Source of the DNA: a virus
Length of the DNA stretch: 34,686 nucleotides
Strand: one strand, 5' to 3'
Virus record (IMG/VR): IMGVR_UViG_3300010370_000117
Coordinates: 1-34,686 of that record
The position numbers and the translations under genes were made by a program. The notes below the pieces were generated by a model, which was given only the letters and a program-made list of their open reading frames with translations, had not been told where the DNA came from and did no database searches. Shown here one piece after another: positions 7,824 to 30,506 of this stretch. Every line of letters begins with the position of its first letter. The stretch's first letter is position 1.

Positions 7824-8237
7824 ATGGCATCTTACAGATTCAGATCTGAAAAATACGTCAGTAGAGGATTCAAGGATTTAGCGGTTTCGTTTAATCCCAA
7901 TCCCTCTACTGGCGATTTTGGCGTAGTTAAGAATGAAAATGCTATAAAGCAGTCTGTAAGGAATCTTGTCCTCACCATGTTTGGTGAAAGACCCTTTCAA
8001 GAGAATGTTGGGTCCAAAGTAAAATGGCTTTTATTTGAGCAGTGGGACGTTTTTACTAAAGACTCTCTTGAAAGTGAAATTAGAAATACTATCTCACGAT
8101 TAGAACCACGAATCATCGTCGATTCGGTGGATGTGCAAGACGATTCTGACATAAACGGTATCCAAGTTTCCATAGATTATACAATCGTCGGTCAAACACT
8201 TGTCCAAACAGTCGCATTCTTGCTAGAGAAGACCTAA
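7824..8237 (+). CDS. 25: Baseplate wedge subunit gp25
   Basis: At 137 residues it matches the size of T4 gp25 (132) and the GPW/gp25 family. The family core is clear: a disordered N-terminus, then ENAIKQSVRNLVLTMFGERP with the conserved GERPF (54-58), FQENVGSKVKWLLFE, a helix (DSLESEIRNTISRLEPRI) and two closing strands (DINGIQVSIDYTIVG). In T4 the protein sits at the inner baseplate, joining wedge to hub and nucleating sheath polymerisation; the EPR-like motif is part of its lysozyme-unrelated fold. It is followed after one base by gp6, the same order as in other cyanomyoviruses. Confidence 0.93.
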   Translation: MASYRFRSEKYVSRGFKDLAVSFNPNPSTGDFGVVKNENAIKQSVRNLVLTMFGERPFQENVGSKVKWLLFEQWDVFTKDSLESEIRNTISRLEPRIIVDSVDVQDDSDINGIQVSIDYTIVGQTLVQTVAFLLEKT

Positions 8238-13300: not shown

Positions 13301-16300
13301 TGCAAACCCAGTTGTATACAACGGCACCTTTATTGTAACTTCTCGTATTGACGATTTTACATTCTCATATCAATTAAATGTGCCTACTAATATTATCCCA
13401 CAGGGTAATATTCTTTTGTCAGTTGACCTCAATAGAGGTAAATCTGATGTGCCATCTATCAATAAAGTAATCAGTGAGTTTACTACCAATATTCAGAATA
13501 CATTCTTTAATAGTGATTATGTCTATATTGCTGCGTCTGGTCTTCCAAACTACAAAATTGGTCCTTTCACTGGTTCAGCTCTGATTCCTGGTAACCAACG
13601 CAAACTATTCAGACTACCAAGAAAAGTCCAAACTATCTCAGAAAGAAAAGATATTGTTCCTGGCACTCCAATTGGCGCATGGATAAATGGTGTTTCGATT
13701 TGGTCTTATAAGTCTCGTGAATTTGTAAGATTTGGTCCAATAACATCAATCGATGTTATTGATGGTGGTATCAAATATGACGCTGGAAACAAACCATCTC
13801 TAGAAATTTCAGGTGGTGGTGGCACTGGGGCATCTGCAGAAGTAGTTATTAATGGTCAACTGGTATCATTTGAAGTTACTAATGAGGGTAGTGGATATAT
13901 TGAGCAACCACTGGTCTCCATTGTCGGCGGTGGTGGTAGTGGTGCTACAGCGCAAGCAATCGTCACTGGCGGTAGAGTAACAAGAATCCTGGTTGAGCAA
14001 CCTGGCACAGGTTATATCTCACAACCCAGCGTTTCAATCACTGGTGGCGGTGGCACTGGTGCTACAGCAACTGCTAATGTTAGGGGTCCTGTAGAATCAG
14101 TATTTCTCACAAGTGCTGGTAATGGGTATACTGAAATTCCAACAATTAAGTTAAATTCTGGTGAAGGTGCCCTTGCACAACCAATTGTAATCAATGGTCG
14201 TATTGTTTCTATTGCTATTATCAACTCAGGTGCTGGGTATACCACACCACCAACGGTTGTAATTAATGGCGATGGTTTTGGTGCAATTGCAAAGGCAAAT
14301 ATTGGCACTGTTGGTGAAGACAAGGGCAGAGTGCTGAGCGTTGAAATTACTAATAGGGGTATTGGATACACTCAAGGCAATACTACAATTAGATTGGAGT
14401 CAATTGGAGAAAACGCAGTATTCCAAGCAAATGTATTTGAATGGAATAAGAACCTGCAAGCAGACCTTTCTACCAAATTTGACTCTGCTAGAGGTTATGT
14501 TTTCACTGGTTATAATAACCAATTTGGTGGTGAGTATGCTCACCTTTCTGACCCTAAAGAGTTGAGATATGTAGTTGGTGATAATGTTTTCCGCAATCCA
14601 GTCACTCAACAGTTCCAAGAATTAACATCAAACTATAAGCACTCCCCAATTTTGGGTTGGGCATTTGATGGCAACCCAATTTACGGTCCATATGGATATG
14701 ATGACCCAACTGACCAGAATAGCGGTATTAGAAGACTGCGTACATCTTTTAAATTAAAGACAAATATTGTATTTGATGAAAATACCAATCCCAATCCAAG
14801 TCGTATTGATGGTCCTTCACTGACAGAGTATCCTGCAGGATCATTTATTGATGACTACTTCTATGATTTCCAGTCTGGCGATTTAGACAATTATAACGGT
14901 CGTTTCTGTAAGACTCCAGAATTCCCAGATGGAGTTTATGCATACTTCATCACAATCGATGCTTCCGATGCTGGTAAGGCAGAATTTCCATACATCATTG
15001 GTCCCAAATATAACTCACTGCCTGATAGTTGGAACTTTACTCAAGGAGCAACTCAGGAAAATATCCCTGCAGATATTGTGAGATTCAGAGACCCATATGT
15101 TGACGTTGATATTGATGTCGATCGTCAACCAAATCAAGAGTCCAATGTCTTAACTACTGAGATTGAAGGTTATCCTATTATCTTTGAGATTCAAGACTCC
15201 AATAATGATGGTTTGATTGATGCTAACGAGCAACAGGAGTTTCTTGAGTTATCCGAAGAACCAACTCTGCAAATCTTTGATTACTTCCCACAAGTATCTT
15301 CTGAGTCTAGAGTTGATATTGAAGTTGAGAGCACAACTCAGTTTGAAGATGCTAAGATTGATGGATTTGTTATTGAAAATCCAGGTGTATCCTATCAGGT
15401 TGGAGATACTGTATTCTTTGATAATGAGGGCACTGGTGGTTTTGGTGCTTCTGCCCTTATTGAGTCGGTTAAAGGACAGAAGATTCTTGGTTATACTAAA
15501 GAAATTATTGCAGATAAACCCTACGGTGTTATTACAACAGAAATTGAGCACGAATTGCGTCAGGATGATGAAATCCTTGTAAATTCAACACCCATCTTAG
15601 ATAATACCAATAAGACCTTTAAAGTAAAGGTCGTAGCAGGTATTGAGCGTATCAATATCATTCAAAGTGGTGTTGGTTACAATCGAGACATTCCACCAAC
15701 CTTCGAACTGATTACATCAGCAGGTCAAGATGGTCAACTTGAGTTGATTCTTGAAAATACTGGTCAAATCAATAAAGTAAAAATTGTCAATTCTGGTAAT
15801 GCATACGACCCCGAAAATCCTCCAGAGATTCGCGTATCACACCCTCAACAATTCAAGAAAACTCGTTATTGGTTAACTGAATATTACGAGGCAACTAGCA
15901 CTGTAAGAATCATTCACTCAGTTACAACATCAGATAGATACACCTACATTTGCGGTAGTATCACTGAGTCTGATGGTGATATGTCTGGTTTTATCGCCAA
16001 GTTTGATGACCTTGGCGCAAGAGTGTGGCAGAGAAATCTGCTTCCACAGAATTCTGGACAAAAGAGAGTTGAATTCATCAAGATGGTCATTGATGAGGAA
16101 TTTGAAAATGATGTCATCTATGTGGTTGGTCAATCCTATAATCCAACTACCTCACAATACAGTCCAGATGTATTCCTAGCGCAGTATGAGTCTGGATTTA
16201 ACAATGCAAACGCTCCAGATGGCATTCTGAGGTGGCAAAGATCTATTGCTGGTATTTCTGGCACTACTAGAAGAGATTATGTGACTTCTCTTGCATTAGA

Positions 16301-19300
16301 CCAAGAGAAGAAGATTTATATTGGTGGTTACACTGATACCAACTCACCAGACCCAGATGATATGTGGGTAATTCAGTGTGATTTTGATGGTGACATTAAA
16401 GAGAAGCGTAAGATTGCATCGGCAGATGGTTCTGAGAGACTTTACCAGATTCATCTGATTTCTGATGATAATTTCTTCTTTGTTGGTGTAAATGAAGATA
16501 CGGATGACCTCATCTTTGGTCAATTCTTCTTTGATGGTGCAAATATTGAAATTGATTGGATTCGTCAGATTGCTGTTATTGGTGGTCAAGTAAGAAATCC
16601 CAAATTTACAGTTGATGATTATGGTGCATGTATTCTTGTTTGGGATGTGTATAACGGCACTACAAGCAAGTTTGAAAAAATCCAAATCAACAAATTCCAG
16701 ATTTCAACTGCCAATGCACAGTGGGAATGGGCAAAGAGCATTACTCTAAATACATCCTTCCTGTCAATTAATCATGCAAACGTTAGCGTTGACGTATTTG
16801 GCAACTACACTATTGTAGCAGACGTTGTTGAGTCGCAAAATGAAAGATATTCAATCATCCATTACTTGAAGTATGATGGTACTATCATTAAAGAAACCAA
16901 AGTTGTAGATGTAAGTAATATTGGTTTTAGTGCTAAGAATCATACTGTTGACAACTCTGGTGACTGCATCATCGCAGCAAACCGTCAACAATCAGACCAA
17001 CTCGCATCCTTTAGATTTAATACTGTAGGTGATATTGAGTTTGATTTTACAAAGCAGAATTTGGCAACTTGGACATATGTTGACCAAGCAAATGTTGTTT
17101 TGGATACAACCATCTATAAGTATGGCACTGGATCTTTGAAGTATGTTGCAGGTGCAAAACCAGCATCTCTGACAGGGTTTGACATTACACCAAACGAGTG
17201 GTCTGCTAGAGCATGGTTCTCGATGAATACAACTGCTTGGTCAACTGCTCATCAACCAACATTCTTTGAGTTTGTACCAGCAACAGGAAACCGAATTCGT
17301 TTTGATATTGATGGTGATTCTGGCAGTGCCAACTACCAAAAGATATTGATTTATGTAAATGGAACTTTAGCAGCATCATCAACAACTGCAACTTCTTGGT
17401 CGGCATTTGCATCTGGTGCATGGGTGCATGTTACCTTCCAAAAACGCCAAGAGTCCCTGGGTCTCTATAAGTATGAGGTATTCATTAATGGCAACCTGCA
17501 ACTGAGTTATCAGACAACAGATGACATTCATCTGGATGATATTGTGATTGGTGGTCCATCCGTATTACCAACTACAACAAATTGCTTTATCGGTAATATT
17601 GACGACTTGGTAATTGATGATATTGCACCATATGAAAATGCATACACAGTCCCAACGTCTGAGATTGCTATTACAACATCAGATTCTGACGTTGTTTTAG
17701 TTAAGTTTGACCGTTTGCATACGAATAGAGGTGGTTACACTCTCCAAGACGTAACCCGTTATGGCGAATTGGAGTTCAGTGATATTGAAACTGCAACTAC
17801 TTGGGTGAATATTAACATTCCAGCATTCCAAGCTTGGGAAGAAGGTCCTGGTGGTTTGCAAATCCTCGACATGTCGCAGGTTATCTCCACATTTAACCCA
17901 ACAACATATACATTATCTACTGCCAAGTATCAGTATGCATCTAAGACCTCCACGGTGCCATCACCTAGAGGTAAGAGATTAATTATCGATTGCGACGTAA
18001 TCAATAAATTCTATCTTAAGGATGCATCTTACCAGAAGATTGATAATGTGTTGGAATTCACACTAAATCAAAGTGCATTCTTAACAAAATACAGCATCAT
18101 TCAGCAATTTAACGCACAGGGTGTTACCACAGCATTTGGTACTATTGTAGGCGTCCCAGAGGGCACTCTTGCAAATCCTGGTATTGGCACCAAATACAAA
18201 GTTGGTAAGATTTATGGCACATTCAATTCTACCGACCGCCTCAGAACAACTGCAGGTGATGTAAATGAAATTATCGGTGAGTATTTCGATACTGAAGAAG
18301 CAGAGCAACCATGGGTAGCAGGTGGCACATACGCTATCGGTGATAGAGTCTACGCAAACAGAAGAATCTATCAATCACAGAGTGCTGGCACCGCAGGTAC
18401 CATTTCACCTCAACATACATCAGGCACTGCATCTGATGGAAGTTTGGATTGGGCATTAGTTGATGATGCTGGTAAGTTTGATATCGATCTTACCGAAAAA
18501 CCATACCCAAGACCCATCTATGCTGGTCTTGACATGCCTGAGTGGGATTCCCAAAAGTTATATGCTGTTGGTCAGAGAGTCTGGTGGAAACTGAATGTTT
18601 ATCAGGTTGCAGTAGGCGGTGGAGGTGTTTCTGGCACCAATCCCCCAGTCCACACAACTGGCAGCCAATCCGATGGTAGTGTTACTTGGGAATTTGTAGA
18701 AACCCTTGAACAAATCTCTCCATATGCAAGATTTATGGAGTATGACCAGGGAAATAACTACAGCGTCCTCATCGAAGAGATTCACCCTGGGTCTAGTTAC
18801 ATTCCAGGAGATGTTGTAAGTCTGAGATCCAATAACATTCAGTTAGACTCTTCAAGAAAGCAGGTAAGAATCGTTGGATTCCCATCTGTTAAGAAAATTC
18901 GCGTGACTGCACGCCTTGAAAAAGATATCATCCCAACCCAGTTTGATAGGACTGACCTTGTATATTGCACATCAACAAGTCCCCACTTCTATAACATCTC
19001 CGATATCATCTACACTGAAGGTTTCCAGGGCGATCAGTTTGATGGTTCATTCTTTGTCCAAGATGTCATTGGTAGCAGAGAATTTACTTTCGCTATTCGC
19101 AATGCTGCCGTTTCAGATCCAGTATTTAATGCTGGAGCAATCAGCAATGTCAACATTTACGCTAAGCACCCAACACTGAGATTCACTAAGAATCACCAGT
19201 ATAACTTTGACCTTAGTGACCCATCAAACTTTGGTTATTATCTGTCATTCTCTCAAGATAACCAGTATAAACTGGAGTATTCATTCAATAATATTGTTAG

Positions 19301-22300
19301 AGAAGGCACTCCAGGTATCCAGGCAGCTGGTGCGGCACCATTCGTAAAATTCCTGGTAATTGGAGATATTACAAATATCTCATATTATTTTGACCCATCA
19401 CGCACAGGTAGCAACTCTCCTGTTGGTGCAAATTCGTTTATTGATGTTTATGCAACCCCATATCAAGGAAGATTTAAGATTGCTCAAGTTGTTAATGATT
19501 TTACATTCAAATTCCCACTCGTAAGAGAGCCAGAAAAGAATTCTGCAGAGATTGGTGTTGACGACCAAGATAAGGAATACTCCTTCTACTCAACAACATC
19601 TACCAGAGCAGTTGGTCCTATTAATAGCATCAAACTGGTATCTCCTGGTGGTTTCTATAAGAAACTCCCAATTATTAAAGAGATTGCATCCTTCCGCCAG
19701 ATTGAAAAAATTGTCATTAATGATGGGGGAACAGAATATTCCCCAGGCGTCTATTATGATGTCCAAATTGCAGGTGATGGTGAAGGTGCACGATGCATTG
19801 TCACTGTGGACTTCGATGATGAAGTTGGGTCTGGCACAATTACCAAGATTCAAGTTACAGACCCAGGTAAAGGTTATACATTTGCATCCCTTGATATTGA
19901 TTCTATTCCTGGCATTCTTGGACCCACACTTGCTGGTTCTGGTGCCTCAGCAACTGTTGTTATTCCAGAAGAAGGTAGTGGTGCCTCAGTATTCCTTACA
20001 GGTAGAAATATCGGTAAGATTAAGAGACTTAAGAATAATGAGTTTGGTTTCGGTTATTCGCACGACTACACTCTGAAACCAGAAATTACATTCCCAGTCA
20101 ACCTGCAACTCTTCAATACTTCTATTCTTTCGGAAATCAAGATTACAGACCCTGGCAGCGGTTACACTTCTGCTCCTGCAGTTGTGATTGAAGGTGGTGG
20201 CGGCGTAGGTGCTGAGGCAGTCGCTGTTGTAAAAAATAATCGTTTAAATGAGATTCAAATCAAAAATCCTGGTGCTGGTTACTCATCCGAGCCTACAGTC
20301 ACCCTGAAGTCTGAGTTTAACTACGTTGTTAACCTTGACCTTAACTATCTGCAGTTTAACTTCCCACATGGCATTACAACAGGTGCTGCCATCCAATTCC
20401 GTGCAGATAATATTGGATCTATTGAAGGTGATCTTCCAAAACCAAGTAGTGCTGGTTTAACAACTCTTGTTGAGGGTCAAATCTATTATGCAATTGCTGG
20501 AGAAATTAACTCCCTTGAGCCAGACCAAATCCGCTTTGCACTTACCCCACAATCCGCTGCAGCAGGTGATTATATCACATTCCTGACTCAGGGTAGTGGT
20601 CGCCAAGTGTTGCTTACCGAAGTCTTTGGCGGTAAAGCAGTTGCAGTGGTGGAAACTTCCAGATTCTTGGAGGGTGAAACTGTATTCCAAGGTAACACCC
20701 TGGAGCAGGCATCTGCCATTGGCAAAGTATCCACAAACACAGGTTGGCAGATTGGTCCTAAGATTCTTAAGATTGTGGACTACAATGGTGACTGGAAAGT
20801 TGGCGAAAAGGTCAATGGTGTCATCTCTAAAGCATCTGGTATCATTGATAACCTTAGTATTGCTCGTGGTGTGCTCAACATTGGTTCACTCACTAAGACC
20901 CCTGGTAAGTTTATCGATGACGTTGGCAAGCCATCTGAGATTGTCCAAAAGATTCAGGACTCCTTCTTCTACCAAAACTTCTCTTATGTGATTAAGTCGG
21001 ATATCCCCATCACTAAGTGGAAGAATCAGATTCTGCAAAACAACCACCCAGCAGGTTTTCTGATGTTTGGTCAGTTACAACTGACTGGTGGTAAAGATAT
21101 TTCTGGTCGCAAAATTGCAACTGAGTTTACTAAAGAAGTAAATATCAATAACTATGCAAACATTAATCAGATTACATCATTTGCTGCAGCACAACCAATC
21201 TACACAGATTACAATAACACCGAAGTCCTCTTCCGTAAGAAGCGCCTGACATCTTCGGAAGAAATCTTGACATCTATTGTTAAGAAACTTGATAATGTTT
21301 CAAATCTTTTCTATGGCATTGAAAAGTCATTCCCAATTACTGTTGAGGGTGAGCAAGTAATCGTTAATAGTAACCAGTTACTGATTACTTTGAATGGTAT
21401 CATTCAAGCACCTGGAGAGTCTTATCAAGTAGTTGGTGGCAACATTGTCTTCTCCGAACCACCAAGACCAGCATCTAGAGTCAACTATAGAACTTTAGGC
21501 ATTACACCTATTCCAATTTACAGAATCAATCTGTATTCTGGCACAGTAGGTATTGCTAACTATGGTATCTTCCCAACTCTGGGTCAACAGGTACAAGGTC
21601 AAAATACCAATACTTTTGGCACAGTAATCGACTCTGGCACAAACCACATTGATGTCATCAACATCACTGGTAGTGGATTCCAGTTGAATGAAGAAATTAC
21701 TAGAGGCACACTCTTCTCTGCTCTGGTGGAGTCGGTGACTCTACTCAACACTGAGACTATCTTCAGATTTGGTGAGTCAATCACAAACCTTGAGGGCGAT
21801 ACTGCAATCATTGAGGAAGTTAACATTGACCCAGAAGGTAATGTAGTTGACAGAGTTGTTGTAAGTAAGACTTCGGGCACTGCTGAGTTTGAAACTGGCA
21901 TCTTTGATATTAGACTAAATGAATTCATCTACTCAGCATCCAGCAAGATTGCTGGTAAGGTAACCTTTATTTCACCTTATATTGACCCAGCAACTGAAGA
22001 TCCTGTGGATGAGTTGATTCTTAACCCAGGGTCCACCTTCTATGGTTTGCTGTTTGAGCGTCTGGTGAGTATCACCAACCCCAACGTCATCCTTGATGAT
22101 ATTTCCAAGTCATCGATTACTGCAACAGAATTGTATGACTCGGGAAATAGAATCAACGCCAACTTCTTAAGTTTTGAAGATGTCAGAAGCACAGAGGTTA
22201 CCTATACTGACCTTACTAATGGCACTCTTATCGATGGCGAGTTGGTTTCAAATAAGAAAGTAACTTATACAAATCCTGTGACAGCATATCATGGTAGTGC

Positions 22301-25300
22301 TGGCAATAGATTCTATGATGCTGCGAATATGATTCGTGATAACAAGCAAGAAATTATTGACTTTGCTGAGGCACAAATTGCTGTTGAGTATCCCGATTTC
22401 TACTTCCCTGGAGATGTCAACACCAATCCAACTAGCAGATATTCAGATTCATACAGAATGATTCAACTGAATAAGGATTTGATTGTTGGTATGTCATACG
22501 ATGACATGATTACCCAGTATCCTCTGGTATCTGTCCCTGATGTCAACAAGTGCAAGAGAGACCTTGGTTATTTCGTAGATGCGCTTTCAATTGATATCTT
22601 CCGTGGTGGTAATGTTTACACTCGTAAGTTTACATCTTACTACTTTGATGATACTGGTGCTCTGGTATATGTAAACGCTCAGGCGGCAGAGACACGTTAT
22701 GCTTATGAGAGAGCATTAGATTGGATGAAGCAGGCGATTACAAACCAACTGGCTGGCACAATCTCTGCAGTTAATTCTGTAGATTCTTGGACTGGATATC
22801 AAGACCTGACTATCACTGCAGACCCATCACCAAACGATCCATATGGCACTGCAGGGAGCAATACCAGCAATACCGACCCACAGTCATGCTCAGACGTTCA
22901 AGACGCTCTGACGACGCTCTGGGAGGTCGTAGACACTGCTCTGGATACTGGCACCTTGGATGAGTTGCCAGATGAAGAGATTGGCGAATACTCTCCAAAT
23001 GAGACTAAGTGCCGTCGCGACATTGGTTACTTTGTGGATGCTATCGCAAATGATGTTTCTAGGGGTGGCAACTATAACATTGTAACCTTTACCAAATTCT
23101 ACTTCAATAATGCTGGTGCACCTATCAGCAATGGTCTGGTTGGAGAAACTGCACAATCGATAACTGCATTTGAGAAAGCAAGAGATCTTTCATACAGAGC
23201 AATCAATAACCTCCTGTATTATAAGGACCTAACTCTTCTCAATGACCCAGATTCTTATGGTGGTAATGCTCCAGGTCATACCTACGATGCAGACTACTCC
23301 ACTGGTAGTAACCAACTCATTACCAACTGTGCTGATGTCCAGTCATACATTGCAACCCTGACCGATATTGCAGTTGATGCAATTACTGCAGGTAACTTGA
23401 ATAATGTAAATGCTCTTGCAACCATCAGCGATGGCACTTTTGTCAATAGCGAAAACATCAGGTCAACAAAGATTGCTTATAAGAATAAGTCAACTGGTCT
23501 GTTTGCCTTTGATGACCAAATCACTGGTGTTACCAGCGGTGCTATCTTCAAGGCGATTGGCGCTAACGCTGGTCTCAAGTGGATTTATGCAGGTCCAATT
23601 ACAGGTGCTATGCAGATTGGCGAATACATCACAAACTCAACTTTGGCAAATCAAGGTGGTGTTACACAGAGTGTAATTGTTAAAAAAGCAGAATTAAGCG
23701 GCACTAAGTCTCTCAACTTCCCTGCTGCAGGGTATCTTGTTGCTGCAGAATCTTACAATTTTGCATTTGGTGCTACCGATGACTTCACAATTGAAGCATG
23801 GATTAGACCATCTGGCATTAGTGGGACTCAGCATCTCTTTGATTTCAGAAGAACCGCAACTGATGGTCTCAGAATTATCATGGATGGTCAGCAACTGAGA
23901 GTTTATAACGGCACTTCTTCACTGATTATCAGTGGAAATGTATTCACTGCTGCTGATACTTGGTATCATGTTTCTGTTGTAAGAAGCGATAATGTGCTTC
24001 AAGCATATGTGAATGGTGTCCAAGTTGGGTCTAACTATGCCGATACTAATGATTATGGATATGCTCCTTGCTATATCGGTGCAGATTTCAATACCACAAA
24101 CCAGTTTACTGGTTACATGGACAATCTGTATGTCAAGAATGGCACTGCAGACCACATCGGCGCATTTACTCCACCAACTCAAGTTGATTATACAGATACT
24201 GAAATTGTGCTTGGACTCAATGGCGAAGGTCCATTCATCCTGTCAACTACAGAAACATACGCCACACTCACAAGCATTAATGTATACAGTGCTACTACTA
24301 AGGTTGTGAATTATGATGACCTTAGTTTTGTTATCAAGGATATTGACCTGGGTAGAAAAGAATACAGAGATTGTGCTGATATTATCAGTCTGAATGCCGC
24401 TTGGATTGCTGAAGAAGCAGTTGGTCGCATGAAGGCTCAATTCCCAGACTTCATTATGCCTGGTGATGACCCAGCAAATAACAGTTATGGTGGCACTAAC
24501 TACTGCCTGCGTGATACTAAGGACTATATCATTGCAGCACTGGTTAAGGACTTAAGAGATGGTGGCAACTATCATACACTCTATACAGCACGCACATACC
24601 TGTCAACATCTGGTAAGTTGAAGCATGTTGGTAATGAAATTCTGCAGACATTATACACTTGGGATGAAGTGAGCAATATCATGATTGATATCATCACAAC
24701 TACAAGCAATGATTTGTCTGGAGAATACACAGAGAAACTGCGTATTCCAAACAACTTTGATTCACCAGCATCTCAGGCAGTCCAAGACGAAATTCGTCAG
24801 TTAACCACTGACATGCTTGAGGTTATTGCACCATCTCCAAATAGATTTAGAGATTCTGGTATCTTAATCTGGAAAAACCGCGACTACATTGCTGATGAAG
24901 TTGTTGGTTATATTCAAGACAAGTATATCAAGACTCTTGCTGGTAACCCTGTGGATTTCCTTGATATCCCAGGTGATGATAACATTTGTAAGCGTGACAT
25001 CAAGGCATATATCATCCCAGCAATTATTGCGGACCTTGCAACTGGTGGCACATATCAAACACAGAATGTAATTGACTTCTATCTGGATTCTCAGAAAAAT
25101 ATTCTTTTTGTTGAGAATGAATTAAATCCAATGCTGGATGCATTCAATAAGACTAAGGAGTTGTGCCAGTTTGCGGTCAACAATCTTCTGTTAGATGCTG
25201 GCACAACTGCATCTGAATATGGATATTCAGCATGGGCACAAGATGATTATTATGAGCCACAGTGGACTTCAAGAAATGCATATAGAGACACAACAATCGA

Positions 25301-28300
25301 AGTCGATGATGAAGGTTACCCACAGGCAACTCGCAACCGCAACGACAGATATATTGATGCAACTAATTTAATCAAGGCGAACAAGGAATTGATTGCTAAA
25401 GAAGCAGTTGCAACAATGAATGACTTGTCCAAGTTTGGTGACTTCCAAATTCCAGGTGGGTCTGTAAATTGCGAAGATGATGTTAAGGATGTTTTAGATG
25501 CTCTCACTCATGACTTGCTGTTTGATTGCAACGACAAGATTTATGAAGCAGCGTCAATGTATATTGAGCCAGAGAATAATTCTCTCAGATATATTGAGAG
25601 TGAGTGGGAAGCATCCGTAACAACATTTAAGATTGTTAGAGACATTACAACTCTGACAATGAGAAATGCTTTTGGCAGAGACTATATTCCTGGCACAAGT
25701 ATTTCAGGTGTCCCTGTAGAGTCCTACGAGCAAAATCCCAAAGAAAATATCTTTAAGTATTGTGGCGATGCTATTGATGGAAACATTCGCTATATTGCTG
25801 AGCAAGCAGTGTATGACGGACAGCAGCAATATCCTGGTCTTGTAATTCCGAATGGTGCAATTAATTGTGTCCATGACGTTGCAGACATTCTCAAAGCACT
25901 GGTATTTAACCTGAAGTATGGTGGTGATAACTGGATGCAGTATGCTACTGAATTCTATGTAAATTACTCTGGCAATCTGCAGCATATCACATCGCAGACT
26001 ACAGAAACTATCTGGATTCTGAATAGAGCCCGCGACCTTGCAATTAAGGCAATTAAGGATGCTCCAATCACAAACAACTCTGGATTTGCAGGGTCGCAAA
26101 GATTCTACGATGCATCTCCAAATCCAACAAACCAACTTAGAAATTCAAACAATACTACTGGTATTAACTTAACAACATTCAACAATATTGTAACAAGGTC
26201 ATTTGCACCTGGCACCATTAATATTCAGAATGCTGACAATAGCAGCATTGGTATGGACAATAGTGATGACTTCACTGCACGCTGCATCACTGTCCTCCCA
26301 TCTGGCACTCCAACAGACTCTGTGCTGTTTGAGGGTGGTGGTAGTGGTTATGGCACCTGGATTGGTTTCCGTGACAGTGGCACTTACCTGAGATTCCGTG
26401 CTGGAAACGGTGGTAATGCATATACTGGCGGTGCTTCATACACTAGCGATACTGGTCTCGCAAAGCTGGATATTCCAGTTGCAAATCTTGTTGCTGCTGG
26501 TTATATGGATGGAAACCAACATGAGTTGGTTTGGGAAGTGAGAATTGGTGGTAATATTGCTACAGGTCCAGGTAGAGTCAGACTCTTTATCGACGGCAAT
26601 CTTGTTGGCACTGCAACTACACCAGGATCTCTGAATACTGGTCTGGCAGCAGGTGGTGGCGCATGGTCTGGTGGTAATGATGGTGGATTTGCAGCAACTG
26701 CTGGTGCAGTGCCTGCAGGTGAGCCAACAACGGCATGGCCATATGCAATCACTGGCAATATGGATTACTATCGTGGTCGCTTGGTAGATTCCTCATACAC
26801 TGGCACCGAAGCAAATTCGGTAATTACTGAAATTAACACCTTGATGTCTAAAGTAACATCAGGGATTCAAAATCCAACCAACGTTGCTACTCGTAGTTAC
26901 ACTCTGCCAACTATTTGGCCAGTTAAGTATACTCCAGAGATTGCTAAGCGTGATTTAACAATTACATATGACACAATTAGTGGTGGGTCTGGGGCAAGCG
27001 GCACTTGGTATAACACATGTGGGGAAGTAGCATCATCCATTGATACCCTCATGGATATTCTCATCAATACAATTGAGGAAGCAGCAAATAATAACGTCAA
27101 CTATCTTACTACCAATGTAACCAGAACATTCAAACCAGTCAATAACACTGAGTATCAACTTGGCACTTGCTATGACGTTGTATCTGCTATTGATACACTG
27201 TTTGGTCTGATGACTGAAACATTAGGTGCTGGTCCAGAGAATACAAAACTGATAGCAAACATGATTCTCTTCAATGAGAATGCAATTGCAACCAGAGCAT
27301 TTAATGAAACTCGTGCATATTATGGCACTACAAATCTGACTATAGACTTTGCACTCAATGTGCTGAAATCGTGCAGATATGACATGATTACTGGTGGTAA
27401 TGCTGGGTCATTCAAACTTCTTCAAGATTGGTTTGATGGCGAAGGTAACTTCATTGCATTCCCAGGAGTAACCAGATCTCATATCCTCTTCTGCCTCACT
27501 AAGGTCAGAGAGTATATTAAGAGTGTAATGTATCTTCTGGATACTGACCCAGATTGGACTCTCTATACCACATATAATCCAGTTGAAAGACTTGAGTGGT
27601 TCCAAGAAGCAGCAGAATTCATTGTTGATTCTTCACTAAATTCAATTGAATATGCGTTGGAAGCATCTAAGTTTCCAACAGAAGCAAAGGTTACATTTAT
27701 TGCATCTACAGATGCTGTGAATCTGTCAAATACCTACAACATGGGTATTGACTACAATACTGACCCCGCTCTCGTTACTCTCTTACCACTTACTGAAGTT
27801 GGTTATGAGCGTGCTGAGTATAGAGTCAGAATCAATCGTCCAAACTCTTTCCGTAGGGGAGATATTCTCCAGTATATCCCAGCGTCAGAAACATCTCTAA
27901 ATGGTCTGGCAGGAACTGATTATGTCTATGTAATTAATGCTGAGGCAACTTGGTTTGAGATTGGTCTCCACTACATCCACGATGGCAGATTTAAGCAATT
28001 TGCTGTGGATACTGCAAATACTGGTGCTCAGATTCTGCAGGTTGTCAGAAGGTCTGGTATTGATATTAAGAATATCGTTTACCCAGTAGATCCATCACAA
28101 ACACCTGTCCTTGGTGGTTTCAACTCTGCAGATGTTATCTATGGAGTTACTTCTCAGGCACATGCAGAAATCGGCGTTGTCCAAGAAAACAAGGCAAAAA
28201 TTTACAAGTCGTTTACTAGATACGACCTCAATAACGTGTCCGAAGTGCTTGGAGTTTATGATAACTTTATTAACGGTGAGCAAGTTGTTGTCCAAGGTGC

Positions 28301-30506
28301 AACTAGCAACACTGGTTACATCTTGCAAACTGCAACAACAAATAATGACGGAGAAACATTTGTAAATCTTATTACAGAGACTGGCACTATTTCAATTGGT
28401 GATGATATTGAAGGCGTTGATTCTGGCACTATTGCTACCGTTACGGGAATTTCTGATAGACTGCTTCTTAATATCAAGTCTGGTAGTTTTGATAGCAACC
28501 AGTGGTTGTTTGAAACTGATACCTCAACTGAGGCATACATTACAGAATACACGAATAAGAGTGGCACTCTGACTGGCAATAGTGGTGGTCGTATTACGAT
28601 TGATGTTGAAACTATCGAGAATTCTTGGAATGCTGGAGATGTAATTTACGGTAGTTTGACCGATTATATCCTTGAAGTTAGAGGAATCAGCGGCACTCAA
28701 ATTCAACTTAATCAGTATATTCATGGCACAAATGTGTATCAACTAGAATTGGGTGCTGCAATCATTGATACTGGTATTGCTGATACATTTAGAGTTGGTG
28801 ATGAGGTATACCTCTTACAAGGCACCACAGTTAAGAATCCTGGTTTCGTGGCAACTGTTACTCAATACATCAATGACACAGACCAAGGAATTCATAGATT
28901 GTTTATTGCAAACCTAGTACCTGTGGGCGCTGGTGCTGATATTAATGAGGTTATCACTAGCACAAATAACATTGGTAAGATTGATATTGGATCTAACTTC
29001 CCAACAATCTATGCAAATGTCCTCTCATACACCGATACCGAATACTCATCTTATGGTAAAGTAGTTGCTATCGAGCAAAGTGGTATTACTGCTAAGATTT
29101 GGGTCCAAGATGCAGTTGGCGAATTTGTCAACAACATGAGCGTCAAATCAGACTTCGGTTGGGGTGCTGCAGTTTCTAAGGCAACTGTCCTTGAAGGTAG
29201 AGTCGATAGATACTTCCGTGGTTTTGATGGTGTCCAAACAACATTTGATATCACCATCAATAATGGTGAAGCATACTACCCAGACCCAGCAGGACACCTG
29301 CTTGTGTTTGTGAATGCCGTGCTGCAACCTCCTGGTGCTGGGAATTCATATATTGCATTCTCAGATAAGATTCAGTTTACTGAGCCACCTGAGATTGGAT
29401 CTGAATTCATTGGTTACTATGTTGGTAAACTCCGTCAACTGGATGATATTAGTTTTGAGTTTGACTCACTGCGCTCATCCTTCAACCTCAAGCGTGATGG
29501 TCTCTTCTACTCACTGACATTGACTGAGGGCGTATCGTCCAATACAATTCTGCCAGAAAACAATATTATCGTTTCTTTGAATGGCATCGTTCAGGAGCCA
29601 GGTGTTGCTTATGAGTTGGTTGGTTCTAGAATCATCTTCTCAGAAGTCCCACGCGCAGGTAGCACTTTTGTTGGATTCTCCTACATTGGTAGTGACGCTG
29701 ACGTGGTTGCAGCAACAGTTGTGCCACCTATTGAAGCTGGCGACCAACTCTTTATTGATGGTGAAGAATTTAACCGCGAAGTTGCTGTTATTGAATCTTC
29801 CAACTCTCTGGTAACATTTGAGTATACTGGATCGATTAAAGGTAGAAATGCAGATGCTCTTGCTGAGGTCACATCTGGTCAATTGACAGGCGCCATTCTT
29901 ACAAACCCTGGCGATGGATATACATCACGTCCAAACGTAGACGTTATCTCATCTACTGGTTTTGATGGAAGAATCAAGGCACTGATGGGTATTACTAGAA
30001 TTGATGTGAGAAATGCTGGAGTTGGTTACAAGAAACCAGTTGTTGCAATCGATAATGAAGTCCCAGATAATTTTGTGACACCAGTTGGAACACCAATTAA
30101 CGGCGGTATTGACATTTACAATGCAGAAGAAAATGAGGGTGGTGGAGGAGTTGTTATTACTCCAGGAACAATCACTATTGTTTCAGACCCAGTTAATGTG
30201 ACAGTTAACCAAGGTCAGACTGCAGTATTCACTGTAACTGCAAGAGTATCTAACAATCAAACTTTGAATTATCAGTGGCAGAAGAAGGAGTATGGCACTA
30301 CGGTTTGGACCAACATTATTGGCGCAAACCAAAGAACATTCAGCACGGGCGCTGCAACACAAAATGATGATGGTGATGAATTTAGAGTTGCAATTACTGC
30401 TGCTGGTGCTACACCAGTTTATTCACTGTCGGCAATTATTACTGTCCAGACAGGTGCTACGGTAATCGCAAACTTCAGTCCAACACAAATCTTTGACGAC
30501 ATCTAA
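10341..30506 (+). CDS. Giant multidomain virion protein, 6721 residues
   Basis: One continuous frame of 20,166 bases, likely a baseplate or fibre protein by position after gp6. Approximate domains: 1-75, baseplate-type N-terminus (LPEFIREEDRQFVNF...), whose second half resumes at 667-730 (LFIREVFDKF, IKDFYISKGTKLATQYLFKI, ending near YYP); 161-290, two NG-x-Q-x-P strand modules; 313-620, eight GxGY repeats; 1134-1368, six more; 1368-1570, YHYH-family core (GWAFDGNPIYGP at 1439-1450) without the YHYH motif; 1619-1630, an EF-hand loop; 1844-2233, probable beta-propeller; 2234-2437, LamG-like; 2655-2785, two chitin-binding-like modules; 3104-3324, GxGY repeats; 3984-5740, seven helical Cys repeats with LamG-like domains near 4457-4630 and 5300-5505; 6320-6450, NG-x-Q-x-P modules; 6514-6590, GxGY repeats; 6608-6710, Ig-like. 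No catalytic site recognised. Start ATG has a weak ribosome binding site. Confidence 0.85.
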   Translation: MQKNIAVSDRVEFQLPEFIREEDRQFVNFLFEYYKSQEKTGRPYDILNNLLNYLDLDNYDSDSLSKDTQLLTDIGVYDTKIEIESIDGFQPSDGSIMIDNEVIYYESVTRGPDAIITPGVSFSQFNKKKQLLENPFPLFDGVRNKFPLAFLGTPVAPPSPEHLIVITYNEMKIPGVDYFLEGDEIRFAIPPRARTGADDSEFTQIIYLIGYADQEIITTDSIPWQEWQGTKSYPLRLNTAQYTPTSEIGLVINKNGRLQVPYEDYTVYNQEVVFRYPIGSADNIHIRSVEYIAPAYGSGATAVVAVSPNGQVNKVIAKDGGSNYRLDFAPKIAIQSKESGKGATARSLVGGIKNINLIDGGQGYTSYNPPIPTILAPSNPNGTPARLSLTVNDTTGQVDTITIDNSGSGYDFIPAITFVNPGGARISNPTIDSEGRINNASIQVLSRGGNYTNPPEVYIDPAPEGGINAQAISRVDQDGQVYEISIVNRGRGYTTPPRARIIDPIGAQVLDVTVASGSVTNIEMLTGGRGYTDAPSVYIVDDRKDAYGEPIGGTGATAVATIFNGEITDINITNFGEGYSAEFPPKIFIAEPKSARASVAVGFGEVTGFDIFQNGEGYSPSAFLNCSRGVSGPVAYDQLHNEIYAGEKSLRQSNHLAGTTVINLDSLFIREVFDKFRRQYLPTIEIDYSAVNPVQIVKSIKDFYISKGTKLATQYLFKIMFGEEIDVYYPKDEIISPSAANWVVDTILRAELISGNPDNLIDSELIQYADNVDLNVKGASALIENVISIIQGTDTIYELAISEETLNGSFVIPYKTTLVEPLDTDSQIITVDSTIGWPERNGTILINDEEEVQYKEKSLNQFIECTRSKNGVVEDWDPGTKIFSDIFVYTNKGTDIECKLRVLGIAEAGTTILDNTGSYYLPGDKLKVANLGSTAEGEERLSSWLYNVKKLIKIDTIEPGGVNNQTATVYCENPHGLLVSDQVTIYGANPVVYNGTFIVTSRIDDFTFSYQLNVPTNIIPQGNILLSVDLNRGKSDVPSINKVISEFTTNIQNTFFNSDYVYIAASGLPNYKIGPFTGSALIPGNQRKLFRLPRKVQTISERKDIVPGTPIGAWINGVSIWSYKSREFVRFGPITSIDVIDGGIKYDAGNKPSLEISGGGGTGASAEVVINGQLVSFEVTNEGSGYIEQPLVSIVGGGGSGATAQAIVTGGRVTRILVEQPGTGYISQPSVSITGGGGTGATATANVRGPVESVFLTSAGNGYTEIPTIKLNSGEGALAQPIVINGRIVSIAIINSGAGYTTPPTVVINGDGFGAIAKANIGTVGEDKGRVLSVEITNRGIGYTQGNTTIRLESIGENAVFQANVFEWNKNLQADLSTKFDSARGYVFTGYNNQFGGEYAHLSDPKELRYVVGDNVFRNPVTQQFQELTSNYKHSPILGWAFDGNPIYGPYGYDDPTDQNSGIRRLRTSFKLKTNIVFDENTNPNPSRIDGPSLTEYPAGSFIDDYFYDFQSGDLDNYNGRFCKTPEFPDGVYAYFITIDASDAGKAEFPYIIGPKYNSLPDSWNFTQGATQENIPADIVRFRDPYVDVDIDVDRQPNQESNVLTTEIEGYPIIFEIQDSNNDGLIDANEQQEFLELSEEPTLQIFDYFPQVSSESRVDIEVESTTQFEDAKIDGFVIENPGVSYQVGDTVFFDNEGTGGFGASALIESVKGQKILGYTKEIIADKPYGVITTEIEHELRQDDEILVNSTPILDNTNKTFKVKVVAGIERINIIQSGVGYNRDIPPTFELITSAGQDGQLELILENTGQINKVKIVNSGNAYDPENPPEIRVSHPQQFKKTRYWLTEYYEATSTVRIIHSVTTSDRYTYICGSITESDGDMSGFIAKFDDLGARVWQRNLLPQNSGQKRVEFIKMVIDEEFENDVIYVVGQSYNPTTSQYSPDVFLAQYESGFNNANAPDGILRWQRSIAGISGTTRRDYVTSLALDQEKKIYIGGYTDTNSPDPDDMWVIQCDFDGDIKEKRKIASADGSERLYQIHLISDDNFFFVGVNEDTDDLIFGQFFFDGANIEIDWIRQIAVIGGQVRNPKFTVDDYGACILVWDVYNGTTSKFEKIQINKFQISTANAQWEWAKSITLNTSFLSINHANVSVDVFGNYTIVADVVESQNERYSIIHYLKYDGTIIKETKVVDVSNIGFSAKNHTVDNSGDCIIAANRQQSDQLASFRFNTVGDIEFDFTKQNLATWTYVDQANVVLDTTIYKYGTGSLKYVAGAKPASLTGFDITPNEWSARAWFSMNTTAWSTAHQPTFFEFVPATGNRIRFDIDGDSGSANYQKILIYVNGTLAASSTTATSWSAFASGAWVHVTFQKRQESLGLYKYEVFINGNLQLSYQTTDDIHLDDIVIGGPSVLPTTTNCFIGNIDDLVIDDIAPYENAYTVPTSEIAITTSDSDVVLVKFDRLHTNRGGYTLQDVTRYGELEFSDIETATTWVNINIPAFQAWEEGPGGLQILDMSQVISTFNPTTYTLSTAKYQYASKTSTVPSPRGKRLIIDCDVINKFYLKDASYQKIDNVLEFTLNQSAFLTKYSIIQQFNAQGVTTAFGTIVGVPEGTLANPGIGTKYKVGKIYGTFNSTDRLRTTAGDVNEIIGEYFDTEEAEQPWVAGGTYAIGDRVYANRRIYQSQSAGTAGTISPQHTSGTASDGSLDWALVDDAGKFDIDLTEKPYPRPIYAGLDMPEWDSQKLYAVGQRVWWKLNVYQVAVGGGGVSGTNPPVHTTGSQSDGSVTWEFVETLEQISPYARFMEYDQGNNYSVLIEEIHPGSSYIPGDVVSLRSNNIQLDSSRKQVRIVGFPSVKKIRVTARLEKDIIPTQFDRTDLVYCTSTSPHFYNISDIIYTEGFQGDQFDGSFFVQDVIGSREFTFAIRNAAVSDPVFNAGAISNVNIYAKHPTLRFTKNHQYNFDLSDPSNFGYYLSFSQDNQYKLEYSFNNIVREGTPGIQAAGAAPFVKFLVIGDITNISYYFDPSRTGSNSPVGANSFIDVYATPYQGRFKIAQVVNDFTFKFPLVREPEKNSAEIGVDDQDKEYSFYSTTSTRAVGPINSIKLVSPGGFYKKLPIIKEIASFRQIEKIVINDGGTEYSPGVYYDVQIAGDGEGARCIVTVDFDDEVGSGTITKIQVTDPGKGYTFASLDIDSIPGILGPTLAGSGASATVVIPEEGSGASVFLTGRNIGKIKRLKNNEFGFGYSHDYTLKPEITFPVNLQLFNTSILSEIKITDPGSGYTSAPAVVIEGGGGVGAEAVAVVKNNRLNEIQIKNPGAGYSSEPTVTLKSEFNYVVNLDLNYLQFNFPHGITTGAAIQFRADNIGSIEGDLPKPSSAGLTTLVEGQIYYAIAGEINSLEPDQIRFALTPQSAAAGDYITFLTQGSGRQVLLTEVFGGKAVAVVETSRFLEGETVFQGNTLEQASAIGKVSTNTGWQIGPKILKIVDYNGDWKVGEKVNGVISKASGIIDNLSIARGVLNIGSLTKTPGKFIDDVGKPSEIVQKIQDSFFYQNFSYVIKSDIPITKWKNQILQNNHPAGFLMFGQLQLTGGKDISGRKIATEFTKEVNINNYANINQITSFAAAQPIYTDYNNTEVLFRKKRLTSSEEILTSIVKKLDNVSNLFYGIEKSFPITVEGEQVIVNSNQLLITLNGIIQAPGESYQVVGGNIVFSEPPRPASRVNYRTLGITPIPIYRINLYSGTVGIANYGIFPTLGQQVQGQNTNTFGTVIDSGTNHIDVINITGSGFQLNEEITRGTLFSALVESVTLLNTETIFRFGESITNLEGDTAIIEEVNIDPEGNVVDRVVVSKTSGTAEFETGIFDIRLNEFIYSASSKIAGKVTFISPYIDPATEDPVDELILNPGSTFYGLLFERLVSITNPNVILDDISKSSITATELYDSGNRINANFLSFEDVRSTEVTYTDLTNGTLIDGELVSNKKVTYTNPVTAYHGSAGNRFYDAANMIRDNKQEIIDFAEAQIAVEYPDFYFPGDVNTNPTSRYSDSYRMIQLNKDLIVGMSYDDMITQYPLVSVPDVNKCKRDLGYFVDALSIDIFRGGNVYTRKFTSYYFDDTGALVYVNAQAAETRYAYERALDWMKQAITNQLAGTISAVNSVDSWTGYQDLTITADPSPNDPYGTAGSNTSNTDPQSCSDVQDALTTLWEVVDTALDTGTLDELPDEEIGEYSPNETKCRRDIGYFVDAIANDVSRGGNYNIVTFTKFYFNNAGAPISNGLVGETAQSITAFEKARDLSYRAINNLLYYKDLTLLNDPDSYGGNAPGHTYDADYSTGSNQLITNCADVQSYIATLTDIAVDAITAGNLNNVNALATISDGTFVNSENIRSTKIAYKNKSTGLFAFDDQITGVTSGAIFKAIGANAGLKWIYAGPITGAMQIGEYITNSTLANQGGVTQSVIVKKAELSGTKSLNFPAAGYLVAAESYNFAFGATDDFTIEAWIRPSGISGTQHLFDFRRTATDGLRIIMDGQQLRVYNGTSSLIISGNVFTAADTWYHVSVVRSDNVLQAYVNGVQVGSNYADTNDYGYAPCYIGADFNTTNQFTGYMDNLYVKNGTADHIGAFTPPTQVDYTDTEIVLGLNGEGPFILSTTETYATLTSINVYSATTKVVNYDDLSFVIKDIDLGRKEYRDCADIISLNAAWIAEEAVGRMKAQFPDFIMPGDDPANNSYGGTNYCLRDTKDYIIAALVKDLRDGGNYHTLYTARTYLSTSGKLKHVGNEILQTLYTWDEVSNIMIDIITTTSNDLSGEYTEKLRIPNNFDSPASQAVQDEIRQLTTDMLEVIAPSPNRFRDSGILIWKNRDYIADEVVGYIQDKYIKTLAGNPVDFLDIPGDDNICKRDIKAYIIPAIIADLATGGTYQTQNVIDFYLDSQKNILFVENELNPMLDAFNKTKELCQFAVNNLLLDAGTTASEYGYSAWAQDDYYEPQWTSRNAYRDTTIEVDDEGYPQATRNRNDRYIDATNLIKANKELIAKEAVATMNDLSKFGDFQIPGGSVNCEDDVKDVLDALTHDLLFDCNDKIYEAASMYIEPENNSLRYIESEWEASVTTFKIVRDITTLTMRNAFGRDYIPGTSISGVPVESYEQNPKENIFKYCGDAIDGNIRYIAEQAVYDGQQQYPGLVIPNGAINCVHDVADILKALVFNLKYGGDNWMQYATEFYVNYSGNLQHITSQTTETIWILNRARDLAIKAIKDAPITNNSGFAGSQRFYDASPNPTNQLRNSNNTTGINLTTFNNIVTRSFAPGTINIQNADNSSIGMDNSDDFTARCITVLPSGTPTDSVLFEGGGSGYGTWIGFRDSGTYLRFRAGNGGNAYTGGASYTSDTGLAKLDIPVANLVAAGYMDGNQHELVWEVRIGGNIATGPGRVRLFIDGNLVGTATTPGSLNTGLAAGGGAWSGGNDGGFAATAGAVPAGEPTTAWPYAITGNMDYYRGRLVDSSYTGTEANSVITEINTLMSKVTSGIQNPTNVATRSYTLPTIWPVKYTPEIAKRDLTITYDTISGGSGASGTWYNTCGEVASSIDTLMDILINTIEEAANNNVNYLTTNVTRTFKPVNNTEYQLGTCYDVVSAIDTLFGLMTETLGAGPENTKLIANMILFNENAIATRAFNETRAYYGTTNLTIDFALNVLKSCRYDMITGGNAGSFKLLQDWFDGEGNFIAFPGVTRSHILFCLTKVREYIKSVMYLLDTDPDWTLYTTYNPVERLEWFQEAAEFIVDSSLNSIEYALEASKFPTEAKVTFIASTDAVNLSNTYNMGIDYNTDPALVTLLPLTEVGYERAEYRVRINRPNSFRRGDILQYIPASETSLNGLAGTDYVYVINAEATWFEIGLHYIHDGRFKQFAVDTANTGAQILQVVRRSGIDIKNIVYPVDPSQTPVLGGFNSADVIYGVTSQAHAEIGVVQENKAKIYKSFTRYDLNNVSEVLGVYDNFINGEQVVVQGATSNTGYILQTATTNNDGETFVNLITETGTISIGDDIEGVDSGTIATVTGISDRLLLNIKSGSFDSNQWLFETDTSTEAYITEYTNKSGTLTGNSGGRITIDVETIENSWNAGDVIYGSLTDYILEVRGISGTQIQLNQYIHGTNVYQLELGAAIIDTGIADTFRVGDEVYLLQGTTVKNPGFVATVTQYINDTDQGIHRLFIANLVPVGAGADINEVITSTNNIGKIDIGSNFPTIYANVLSYTDTEYSSYGKVVAIEQSGITAKIWVQDAVGEFVNNMSVKSDFGWGAAVSKATVLEGRVDRYFRGFDGVQTTFDITINNGEAYYPDPAGHLLVFVNAVLQPPGAGNSYIAFSDKIQFTEPPEIGSEFIGYYVGKLRQLDDISFEFDSLRSSFNLKRDGLFYSLTLTEGVSSNTILPENNIIVSLNGIVQEPGVAYELVGSRIIFSEVPRAGSTFVGFSYIGSDADVVAATVVPPIEAGDQLFIDGEEFNREVAVIESSNSLVTFEYTGSIKGRNADALAEVTSGQLTGAILTNPGDGYTSRPNVDVISSTGFDGRIKALMGITRIDVRNAGVGYKKPVVAIDNEVPDNFVTPVGTPINGGIDIYNAEENEGGGGVVITPGTITIVSDPVNVTVNQGQTAVFTVTARVSNNQTLNYQWQKKEYGTTVWTNIIGANQRTFSTGAATQNDDGDEFRVAITAAGATPVYSLSAIITVQTGATVIANFSPTQIFDDI
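11277..12210 (+). repeat. GxGY beta-repeat array 1 (about 8 copies)
   Basis: In-frame protein repeats in the giant gene. Each has the form '[IV]xxIxIxxxGxGYxxxPxxxI' with glycine pairs at residues near 320, 360, 407, 448, 490, 527, 575 and 615, so the period is about 37-48 residues. Examples: DGGSNY, DGGQGYT, NSGSGY, NRGRGYTTPP, TGGRGYTDAP. It interrupts the N-terminal baseplate-type domain. Confidence 0.85.
13741..14430 (+). repeat. GxGY beta-repeat array 2 (6 copies)
   Basis: Glycine motifs at giant-protein residues 1142, 1182, 1221, 1260, 1297 and 1340, a period of about 39. Typical units: NEGSGYIEQPLVSI, QPGTGYISQPSVSI, NSGAGYTTPPTVVI, alternating with GGGGTGATA linkers. The repeat is visible at DNA level too (GGTGGTGGTGGCACTGG near 13812 and near-copies near 13925 and 14044). 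Confidence 0.9.
15195..15230 (+). other. EF-hand-type calcium-binding loop (giant protein residues 1619-1630)
   Basis: DSNNDGLIDANE has D1, N3, D5, G6, I8, D9 and E12 exactly as in a canonical EF-hand or dockerin loop, followed by QQEFLEL. Only one such loop is seen here, so it may be a structural calcium site between domains. Confidence 0.65.
17040..17650 (+). other. LamG/concanavalin-like lectin domain 1 (residues about 2234-2437)
   Basis: Pattern FDFTKQNLATW, an IDGDSGSANYQKILIYVNG strand, SGAWVHVTFQKRQ, YEVFINGNLQLSYQTTDD and CFIGNIDDLVIDD follows the LamG-like jelly roll ('W.HV...R', 'V.INGN', 'IGNIDDL'). Such domains usually bind glycans or other surface ligands. A second copy of the fold appears near residue 4457 and a third-like one near 5300. 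Confidence 0.7.
18303..18690 (+). repeat. Two tandem chitin-binding-like (CBM5/12-type) modules
   Basis: Giant-protein residues 2655-2785 contain W2658-x-x-GGTYAIGDRVYANRRIYQ and W2735-DSQKLYAVGQRVWWKLNVYQ, 77 residues apart, each followed by a Gly-rich turn, P(Q/V)HT(S/T)G, SDGS and a W(A/E). The Trp/Tyr/Val spacing fits the CBM5/12 carbohydrate-binding fold of chitinases and phage fibres. Ligand unknown. Confidence 0.6.
19617..20310 (+). repeat. GxGY beta-repeat array 3
   Basis: About five copies in giant-protein residues 3104-3324: PGGFYKKLP, NDGGTEYSPGVYY, DPGKGYTFASLDI, DPGSGYTSAPAVVI and NPGAGYSSEPTVTL. The last two are close to array 2 in form. The array is followed by a different beta region. 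Confidence 0.8.
22290..27558 (+). repeat. Seven-copy helical repeat with invariant Cys, interrupted by lectin-like domains
   Basis: Giant-protein residues about 3984-5740. Each unit: a helix pattern (xNxxxIAxEAVxxM), a turn (PxFxIPG), then C[KR]RD-like start with the Cys at 4071, 4224, 4722, 4883, 5044, 5176 and 5678, a helix ending D-x-x-x-GGN, a strand/turn FY(L/F)xxxG and a further helix of about 25 residues. Gaps of 132-161 residues separate neighbours except two gaps of 498 and 502, each filled by a LamG-like domain. The last copy is degenerate (CRYDMITGGN). Confidence 0.8.
29880..30066 (+). repeat. GxGY beta-repeat array 4 (2 copies)
   Basis: Residues 6514-6590 of the giant protein: TNPGDGYTSRPNVDVISS and NAGVGYKKPVVAIDNE. 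This is the shortest array and lies just before the C-terminal Ig-like domain. Confidence 0.75.
30162..30470 (+). other. C-terminal Ig-like domain of the giant protein (residues about 6608-6710)
   Basis: The segment has TITIVSDPVNVTVNQGQTA, a central LNYQWQKKEYGTTVW and a closing SLSAIITVQ, the order of strands found in bacterial Ig-like (I-set/Big-type) domains of phage virions. A related domain occurs in the next protein, sharing 'TVNxGQ' and 'YQW'. Confidence 0.65.

Follow-up and report, generated by a model that had tools for sequence, protein, structure and literature searches.

The window analysed here is a stretch of 34,686 nucleotides, positions 1 to 34,686 of the IMG/VR virus record IMGVR_UViG_3300010370_000117, and carries a cluster of baseplate genes from a T4-like cyanophage. 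One very long gene in it encodes a virion protein with a family of repeated, cysteine-bearing helical units, and the question raised by this locus is what these units are and why a baseplate protein carries them. A first-pass annotation, made from the sequence alone, had described seven copies with an invariant cysteine, interrupted twice by lectin-like domains, and knew no named family for them. Our analysis revealed that the units are very probably homologous to phycobiliproteins, and that most of them retain the site at which phycobilins are attached, i.e., a Cys and an Asp, often within Lys-Cys-x-Arg-Asp, as read from their sequences.

Seven units in one baseplate protein

All seven copies were recovered at the residues first given for them, in a single open reading frame (ORF). 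The carrier and the units, together with the segments lying between them, are as follows:

10341..30506, + strand: giant baseplate/virion structural protein at the gp7 position, 6,721 amino acids, single ORF carrying the units
22305..22421, + strand: half-unit, residues 3989-4027, N-terminal to R1 (self-profile 17.8 bits)
22413..22946, + strand: unit R1, Cys4071 in KCKRD, part of an AlphaFold model
22857..23387, + strand: unit R2, Cys4224 in KCRRDIGY (self-profile 102 bits)
23763..24137, + strand: LamG/concanavalin-like domain between R2 and R3 (PF13385, E=2.4e-20, 73.6 bits)
24339..24830, + strand: unit R3, Cys4722 in CLRD, part of an AlphaFold model and holding a PF00502 stretch
24822..25220, + strand: unit R4, Cys4883 in CKRD (self-profile 137 bits)
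25317..25679, + strand: unit R5, Cys5044 in CEDD, without Arg (self-profile 137 bits)
25722..26072, + strand: unit R6, Cys5176 in CVHD, without Arg (self-profile 148 bits)
26571..26705, + strand: LamG-like segment in the R6-R7 gap, weak (PF13385, E=0.0044, 17.6 bits, cut-off 27.6)
27213..27548, + strand: unit R7, divergent, with no in-register Cys (self-profile 106 bits)

Against a self-profile built from the seven copies, each copy scored 102-148 bits. In leave-one-out searches (E-values at Z=100) R1 to R6 were recovered at E=4e-24 to 9e-16 and R7 weakly (E=0.024); six copies thus align strongly with one another, as had been proposed, and the seventh is divergent. The Cys-to-Cys spacings along the chain are 153, 498, 161, 161, 132 and 502 residues. 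Both lectin-like segments lie between units and not inside one, in agreement with the earlier description, although of the LamG domains proposed for the two long gaps the first is clear and the second scores under the family cut-off. The proposed pattern C-x-RD...GGN occurs literally in two copies only (Cys4071 and Cys4224). The Cys-x-Arg-Asp (CxRD) site is intact in R1-R4, reduced to Cys and Asp in R5-R6, and lost in R7, in which Cys5678 is off-register and the residue aligned with the unit Cys is a Leu. The cysteine is therefore not invariant, and it is also missing from the units detected in P-SSM4. At the other extreme, K, C, R and D of R1 and the whole R2 motif KCRRDIGY are invariant in 21 loci.

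Relationship to phycobiliproteins

The units are related to a named family after all, Pfam PF00502 (Phycobilisome). Segments of the window protein matched it with 26.2 bits (the C-terminal piece) and 24.2 bits at a cut-off of 22.2, and the homologue from S-PM2 with 41 bits (E=2.5e-10). Taken singly, units (R3, for example) stay under the cut-off; 16 of 41 individual phage units matched at E-values up to 1, the best being 8e-8. We then used profiles built from phage units only against 177,635 sequences of the Protein Data Bank (PDB). With a 41-unit profile the best 60 listed matches were all phycobiliproteins (best E=2e-6), and another one, built from 36 CxRD units, again placed phycobiliproteins in all of its best 60 listed matches. 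A PDB search with the sequence of one unit had been marginal, with a best E-value of 0.077 and phycobiliproteins among seven of the eight best matches, and was settled by the profiles. In the profile alignments the phage Cys, Arg and Asp fall on Cys84, Arg86 and Asp87 (usual numbering) of phycocyanin alpha, with the following GG in register.

Structure prediction pointed in the same direction. AlphaFold models were computed template-free from phage-only alignments for two constructs, R3-R4 (predicted local distance difference test score, pLDDT, 76.9; predicted template modelling score, pTM, 0.72) and R1-R2 (pTM 0.82). In comparisons with VIA-align, the R3 model, whose local pLDDT is mostly 78-96, matched phycobiliprotein beta subunits with Z 17.9 (2.0 A over 140 residues) and the R1 model with Z 16.1 (1.9 A over 138 residues); for both models 50 of the 50 listed entries were phycobiliproteins, including those of cryptophytes, at Z 14-18. 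Foldseek E-values were modest, the best being 9e-3 for the R3-R4 model and 0.2 for the R1-R2 model, and therefore the case rests on the profiles and the Z-scores together. The units are thus predicted to be globular globin domains; the repeating helical unit of the first-pass annotation stands, and its "rod" does not.

The models also suggest how neighbouring units are joined. The helix that follows the G helix of each unit would be that unit's own helix H; in R3 the last helix is model helix 173-190, and the helices of R4 follow one another as in R3. In the R1-R2 model the last helix of R1 (residues 4184-4203) sits at the expected place of helix B of R2, so these two units may share one helix. 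The half-unit contributes model helix 46-59 (residues 4003-4016), whose counterpart in the alignment is the N-terminal helix of the beta chains of phycobiliproteins.

Compared with the phycobiliproteins of PF00502 (phycocyanin, allophycocyanin and phycoerythrin), the phage units have in common the globin fold, helices B and E, and the CxRD with the following GG at equal spacing, with KCRRDIGY in the phage corresponding to KCARDIGY in phycocyanin alpha. They differ in having about 12-20% identity, with detectable likeness in B-E only, in being concatenated in one giant virion protein, and in that their chromophore is putative. The best scores against the NCBIfam antenna equivalogs ApcB, CpcA and CpeA were 18-20 bits, far under cut-offs of 225-279 (18 against 228 for ApcB), and therefore the units are not antenna subunits. 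A further comparison, made by description, is with the bilin biosynthesis-associated globins (BBAGs), phycobiliprotein relatives outside light harvesting, some of which have CXRD and are loaded without a lyase (PMC10151467); unlike the phage units, BBAGs are single-domain cellular proteins clustered with bilin reductase genes.

Conservation of the bilin-attachment site

CXRD binds bilin in phycobiliproteins and, lyase-free, in some self-assembling bilin-binding globins (PMC10151467). We examined this site in 170 non-redundant units, giving raw counts without correction for the relatedness of rows. Asp is the most conserved column (155 of 170) and Cys is kept in 147; both are present in 146 units, Cys only in one, Asp only in nine, and neither in 14. 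The full CxRD occurs in 89 of the 170, Arg being found only where Cys and Asp are also present. The classes differ: Cys and Asp are kept in 27/27 units of the R5 class and 19/19 of the R6 class, and Cys in 0/16 of the R7 class. Once the R7 class is set aside, 147 of 154 units have the Cys, and five of the seven exceptions also lack Asp. Among CxRD units the mean pairwise identity is 30%, and a Lys precedes the Cys in 76%. Each unit has just one conserved Cys, with no metal-ligand set conserved alongside.

Distribution among phages and co-occurrence with CpeT

Searches by tblastn with two single-unit queries matched 334 and 399 of 50,697 phage records, all of them named Synechococcus, Prochlorococcus or cyanophage except one "Marine" record. 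No units were found in HTVC008M, which belongs to the cyanophage family Kyanoviridae and infects SAR11. Relatives of the units sit in tail-fibre-like proteins; counting half-units, fibre-like proteins gave 13 matches in S-PM2, 16 in S-RSM4 and 19 in S-WAM2. In P-SSM4 (L040), three of three detected units lack the Cys and two of three the Asp, and CpeT and a bilin reductase are kept. Our searches for published phycobiliprotein domains in virions found none in a literature that they covered incompletely.

The same phages also encode a bilin-handling protein, the T-type bilin lyase CpeT, currently explained as a helper of host phycoerythrin and not of a phage protein (PMC10452541). In direct searches of isolates, 23 had both units and CpeT, six had neither (P-SSM2, S-SM2, S-SSM7, HTVC008M, P-SSP7 and S-CBWM1, in which neither was found), and one had units only; CpeT was thus present in all 23 unit-bearing T4-like isolates of this comparison and in none of the six without units, the exception being S-SKS1, with one unit only. 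Fourteen of the isolates were chosen for having units; the unbiased set consists of the 16 phages of PMC3037559, among which 13 have units and CpeT and three have neither. A CpeT table of 2010 lists the gene as absent from P-SSM2, Syn1, S-SM2 and S-SSM7. For Syn1 this was refuted, CpeT being found at E=1.5e-35, and Syn1 also has units, contrary to the prediction from that table. A scan of viral contigs for capsid genes was made for an unbiased census, and nearly all contigs were too short for presence/absence calls.

In S-PM2, Syn1, S-WAM2, S-RSM4 and S-CAM1 the unit-rich fibre gene is preceded by cpeT, which is located 0.7-1.5 kb upstream. The cpeT gene adjoins the unit-rich fibre gene in L044 (12159-12683), L046 (12444-12968), L050 (10443-10979), L182 and L183, and tRNA genes lie near cpeT in L044, L046 and L050. 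Among the annotated neighbours of units that were examined, no bilin reductase or heme oxygenase was present.

Explanations for the units

In our judgement the best explanation, held with slightly better than even confidence, is that the units are virion phycobiliprotein modules, most of them able to carry a covalent bilin. Phycobiliprotein-type globin domains are strung along the giant baseplate protein, and most likely a subset of them, the CxRD units (R1-R4 in the window), would receive a covalent linear tetrapyrrole during folding in the infected cell. The bilin could come from the host or from the phage enzymes ho1, pebS and pcyA, and its attachment could be spontaneous or aided by the phage-encoded CpeT. 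For the degenerate units R5-R7, a structural role is proposed. Speculatively, such pigment on the virion might protect against light or make host attachment light-responsive. That at least some units bear covalent bilin we regard as an even chance.

Several observations weigh against this explanation. For every virion so far, bilin is a matter of inference. The sequence likeness to phycobiliproteins is local, confined to some 57 residues in helices B and E, and Arg is absent in about 40% of Cys-bearing units. P-SSM2, S-SM2 and S-SSM7 form one clade in the capsid-protein tree (support 99/98); as the T4-like phages without units and CpeT are a single clade, the co-occurrence amounts to a single contrast, maybe to one event, and we set aside an exact test of units against CpeT (p=0.0018) since the tree places the three negatives together. 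S-SKS1 lacks CpeT despite its one unit, and in G001, a 190-kb viral contig of unknown completeness, five units were present and CpeT was not found. Conversely, P-SSM4 retains CpeT and the bilin reductase though its three units are without Cys, and therefore CpeT must have another role there. Units showed no association with bilin reductases, which were found in 4 of 17 genomes.

The strongest rival, which we consider a real though lesser possibility, is that an apo-phycobiliprotein fold has been put to new use as a pigment-free spacer that is purely structural or contacts the receptor, its Cys and Asp being kept for folding or merely lingering. The fold is still kept in R5-R6 without Arg, and in R7 and the P-SSM4 units without Cys; the presence of LamG and YHYH domains in this chain hints at roles in adhesion and structure, and P-SSM2, S-SM2 and S-SSM7 manage without units. 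It is not obvious, however, why a spacer would need the Cys. Cys and Asp remain fixed even as identity among CxRD units drops to 30%, and where these two residues are lost they mostly go together, the pattern one would predict for a common ligand site.

It is improbable that the domain is a phycobiliprotein mimic that docks onto host phycobilisomes or linkers, or disturbs them, in the course of infection. The fold does match phycobiliprotein beta subunits and, one generically named marine virus apart, the units are confined to cyanophages, but the carrier proteins are annotated as baseplate or fibre parts, acting outside the cell, and P-HM2 carries units yet infects Prochlorococcus MED4, a host genus without phycobilisomes (PMC2984593).

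The suggestion of the first-pass annotation, that cysteines along a helical rod are joined by disulfides or coordinate metal, is very improbable. The Cys residues are regularly spaced in the chain, but their position and neighbours (Arg, Asp and the preceding Lys) are those of the phycobilin attachment motif, and a single conserved Cys in each globular domain, with no co-conserved metal ligands, gives the idea no support.

That a helical bundle converged on a short motif, an idea for which one might point to the ~57 residues of likeness and moderate E-values (2e-6), is barely credible, as the top matches of two profiles and the listed VIA-align matches of two models all belong to one family, at Z-scores (16-18) exceeding the level of that tool for helical look-alikes.

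Light-dependent adsorption

S-PM2 is reported to be among the light-dependently adsorbing phages in the 2010 work of Jia et al., and P-SSM2, which lacks units, reportedly adsorbs in the dark. P-HM2 and S-PM2 carry CxRD units, and P-SSP7 has none. P-HM2 does not adsorb in the dark, whereas P-SSP7 infects in the dark (PMC7112961), and light-dependent adsorption has been noted for several marine cyanomyoviruses (PMC2984593). The role of phage pcyA and pebS has been called a mystery (PMC3037559).

A bolder form of the pigmented-module explanation is that cyanophage virions are pigmented and that bilins made or attached by the phage on tail and baseplate units act as a photoreceptor, permitting attachment only in the light. 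We regard this as unlikely, and any light-sensing role of the units is equally speculative. If true, it would account for the need of S-PM2 and P-HM2 for light during adsorption, and it would provide phage CpeT and the bilin-synthesis genes with a phage substrate. Two puzzles are now directly testable: the presence of bilin reductases and lyases in cyanophages, even those of the phycobilisome-less Prochlorococcus, and the failure of some cyanophages to attach in the dark. A virion protein with bilin sites is one common candidate answer to both. Even without pigment, a light-harvesting fold would have been reused as a virion part.

Genomic context of the giant gene

The giant ORF is the gp7-position baseplate protein of T4-like marine cyanophages. 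Its surroundings, with further domains, are:

7824-8237: gp25-like protein (phrog_261), upstream of the giant ORF
8239-10323: gp6 (Pfam match), directly before the giant ORF
14442-14963: YHYH domain PF14240 inside the giant ORF (E=2.7e-29)
17166-17615: LamG_3 domain of the giant ORF, outside the repeat region (E=5.1e-7)
30995-31582: YHYH domain PF14240 in the gene after the giant ORF (E=2.9e-38)
32149-33624: gp9/10-like protein

Downstream of the giant ORF lie the YHYH-domain protein, the gp9/10-like protein (Pfam match T4_gp9_10_N) and another tail protein, so that the matches to phrog_261, gp6 and T4_gp9_10_N reproduce the T4 gene order gp25-gp6-gp7-gp8/9/10. Most of the giant ORF is spanned by phrog_701 ("virion structural protein"); its homologues are labelled "baseplate wedge initiator", gp7 or "virion structural protein", gp7 being the annotation in P-HM2 and P-SSM4. 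Its match to the Pfam family Baseplate_wedge (PF23786) is weak, scoring 22.2 bits where the cut-off is 27. The ORF occupies the same place as T4 gp7, after gp25 and gp6 and before gp9/10-like proteins. T4 gp7 has about 1,030 amino acids, compared with 6,721 in the giant ORF, to which globin, LamG, YHYH and Ig-like modules have been added.

At the C-terminus of the gp9/10-like protein (33544-33618), an NCBIfam match to amicyanin was weak (E=0.016, far under the cut-off), and the pattern C-T-L-H-P-A-M there resembles the type-1 copper ligands C-x-x-H-x-x-M; judging from these residues, a blue-copper-like tip on this baseplate protein is possible. Beside the baseplate genes there are also a 2OG-Fe(II) oxygenase-like ORF (688-1314) and a PAAR-like ORF (6677-7210).

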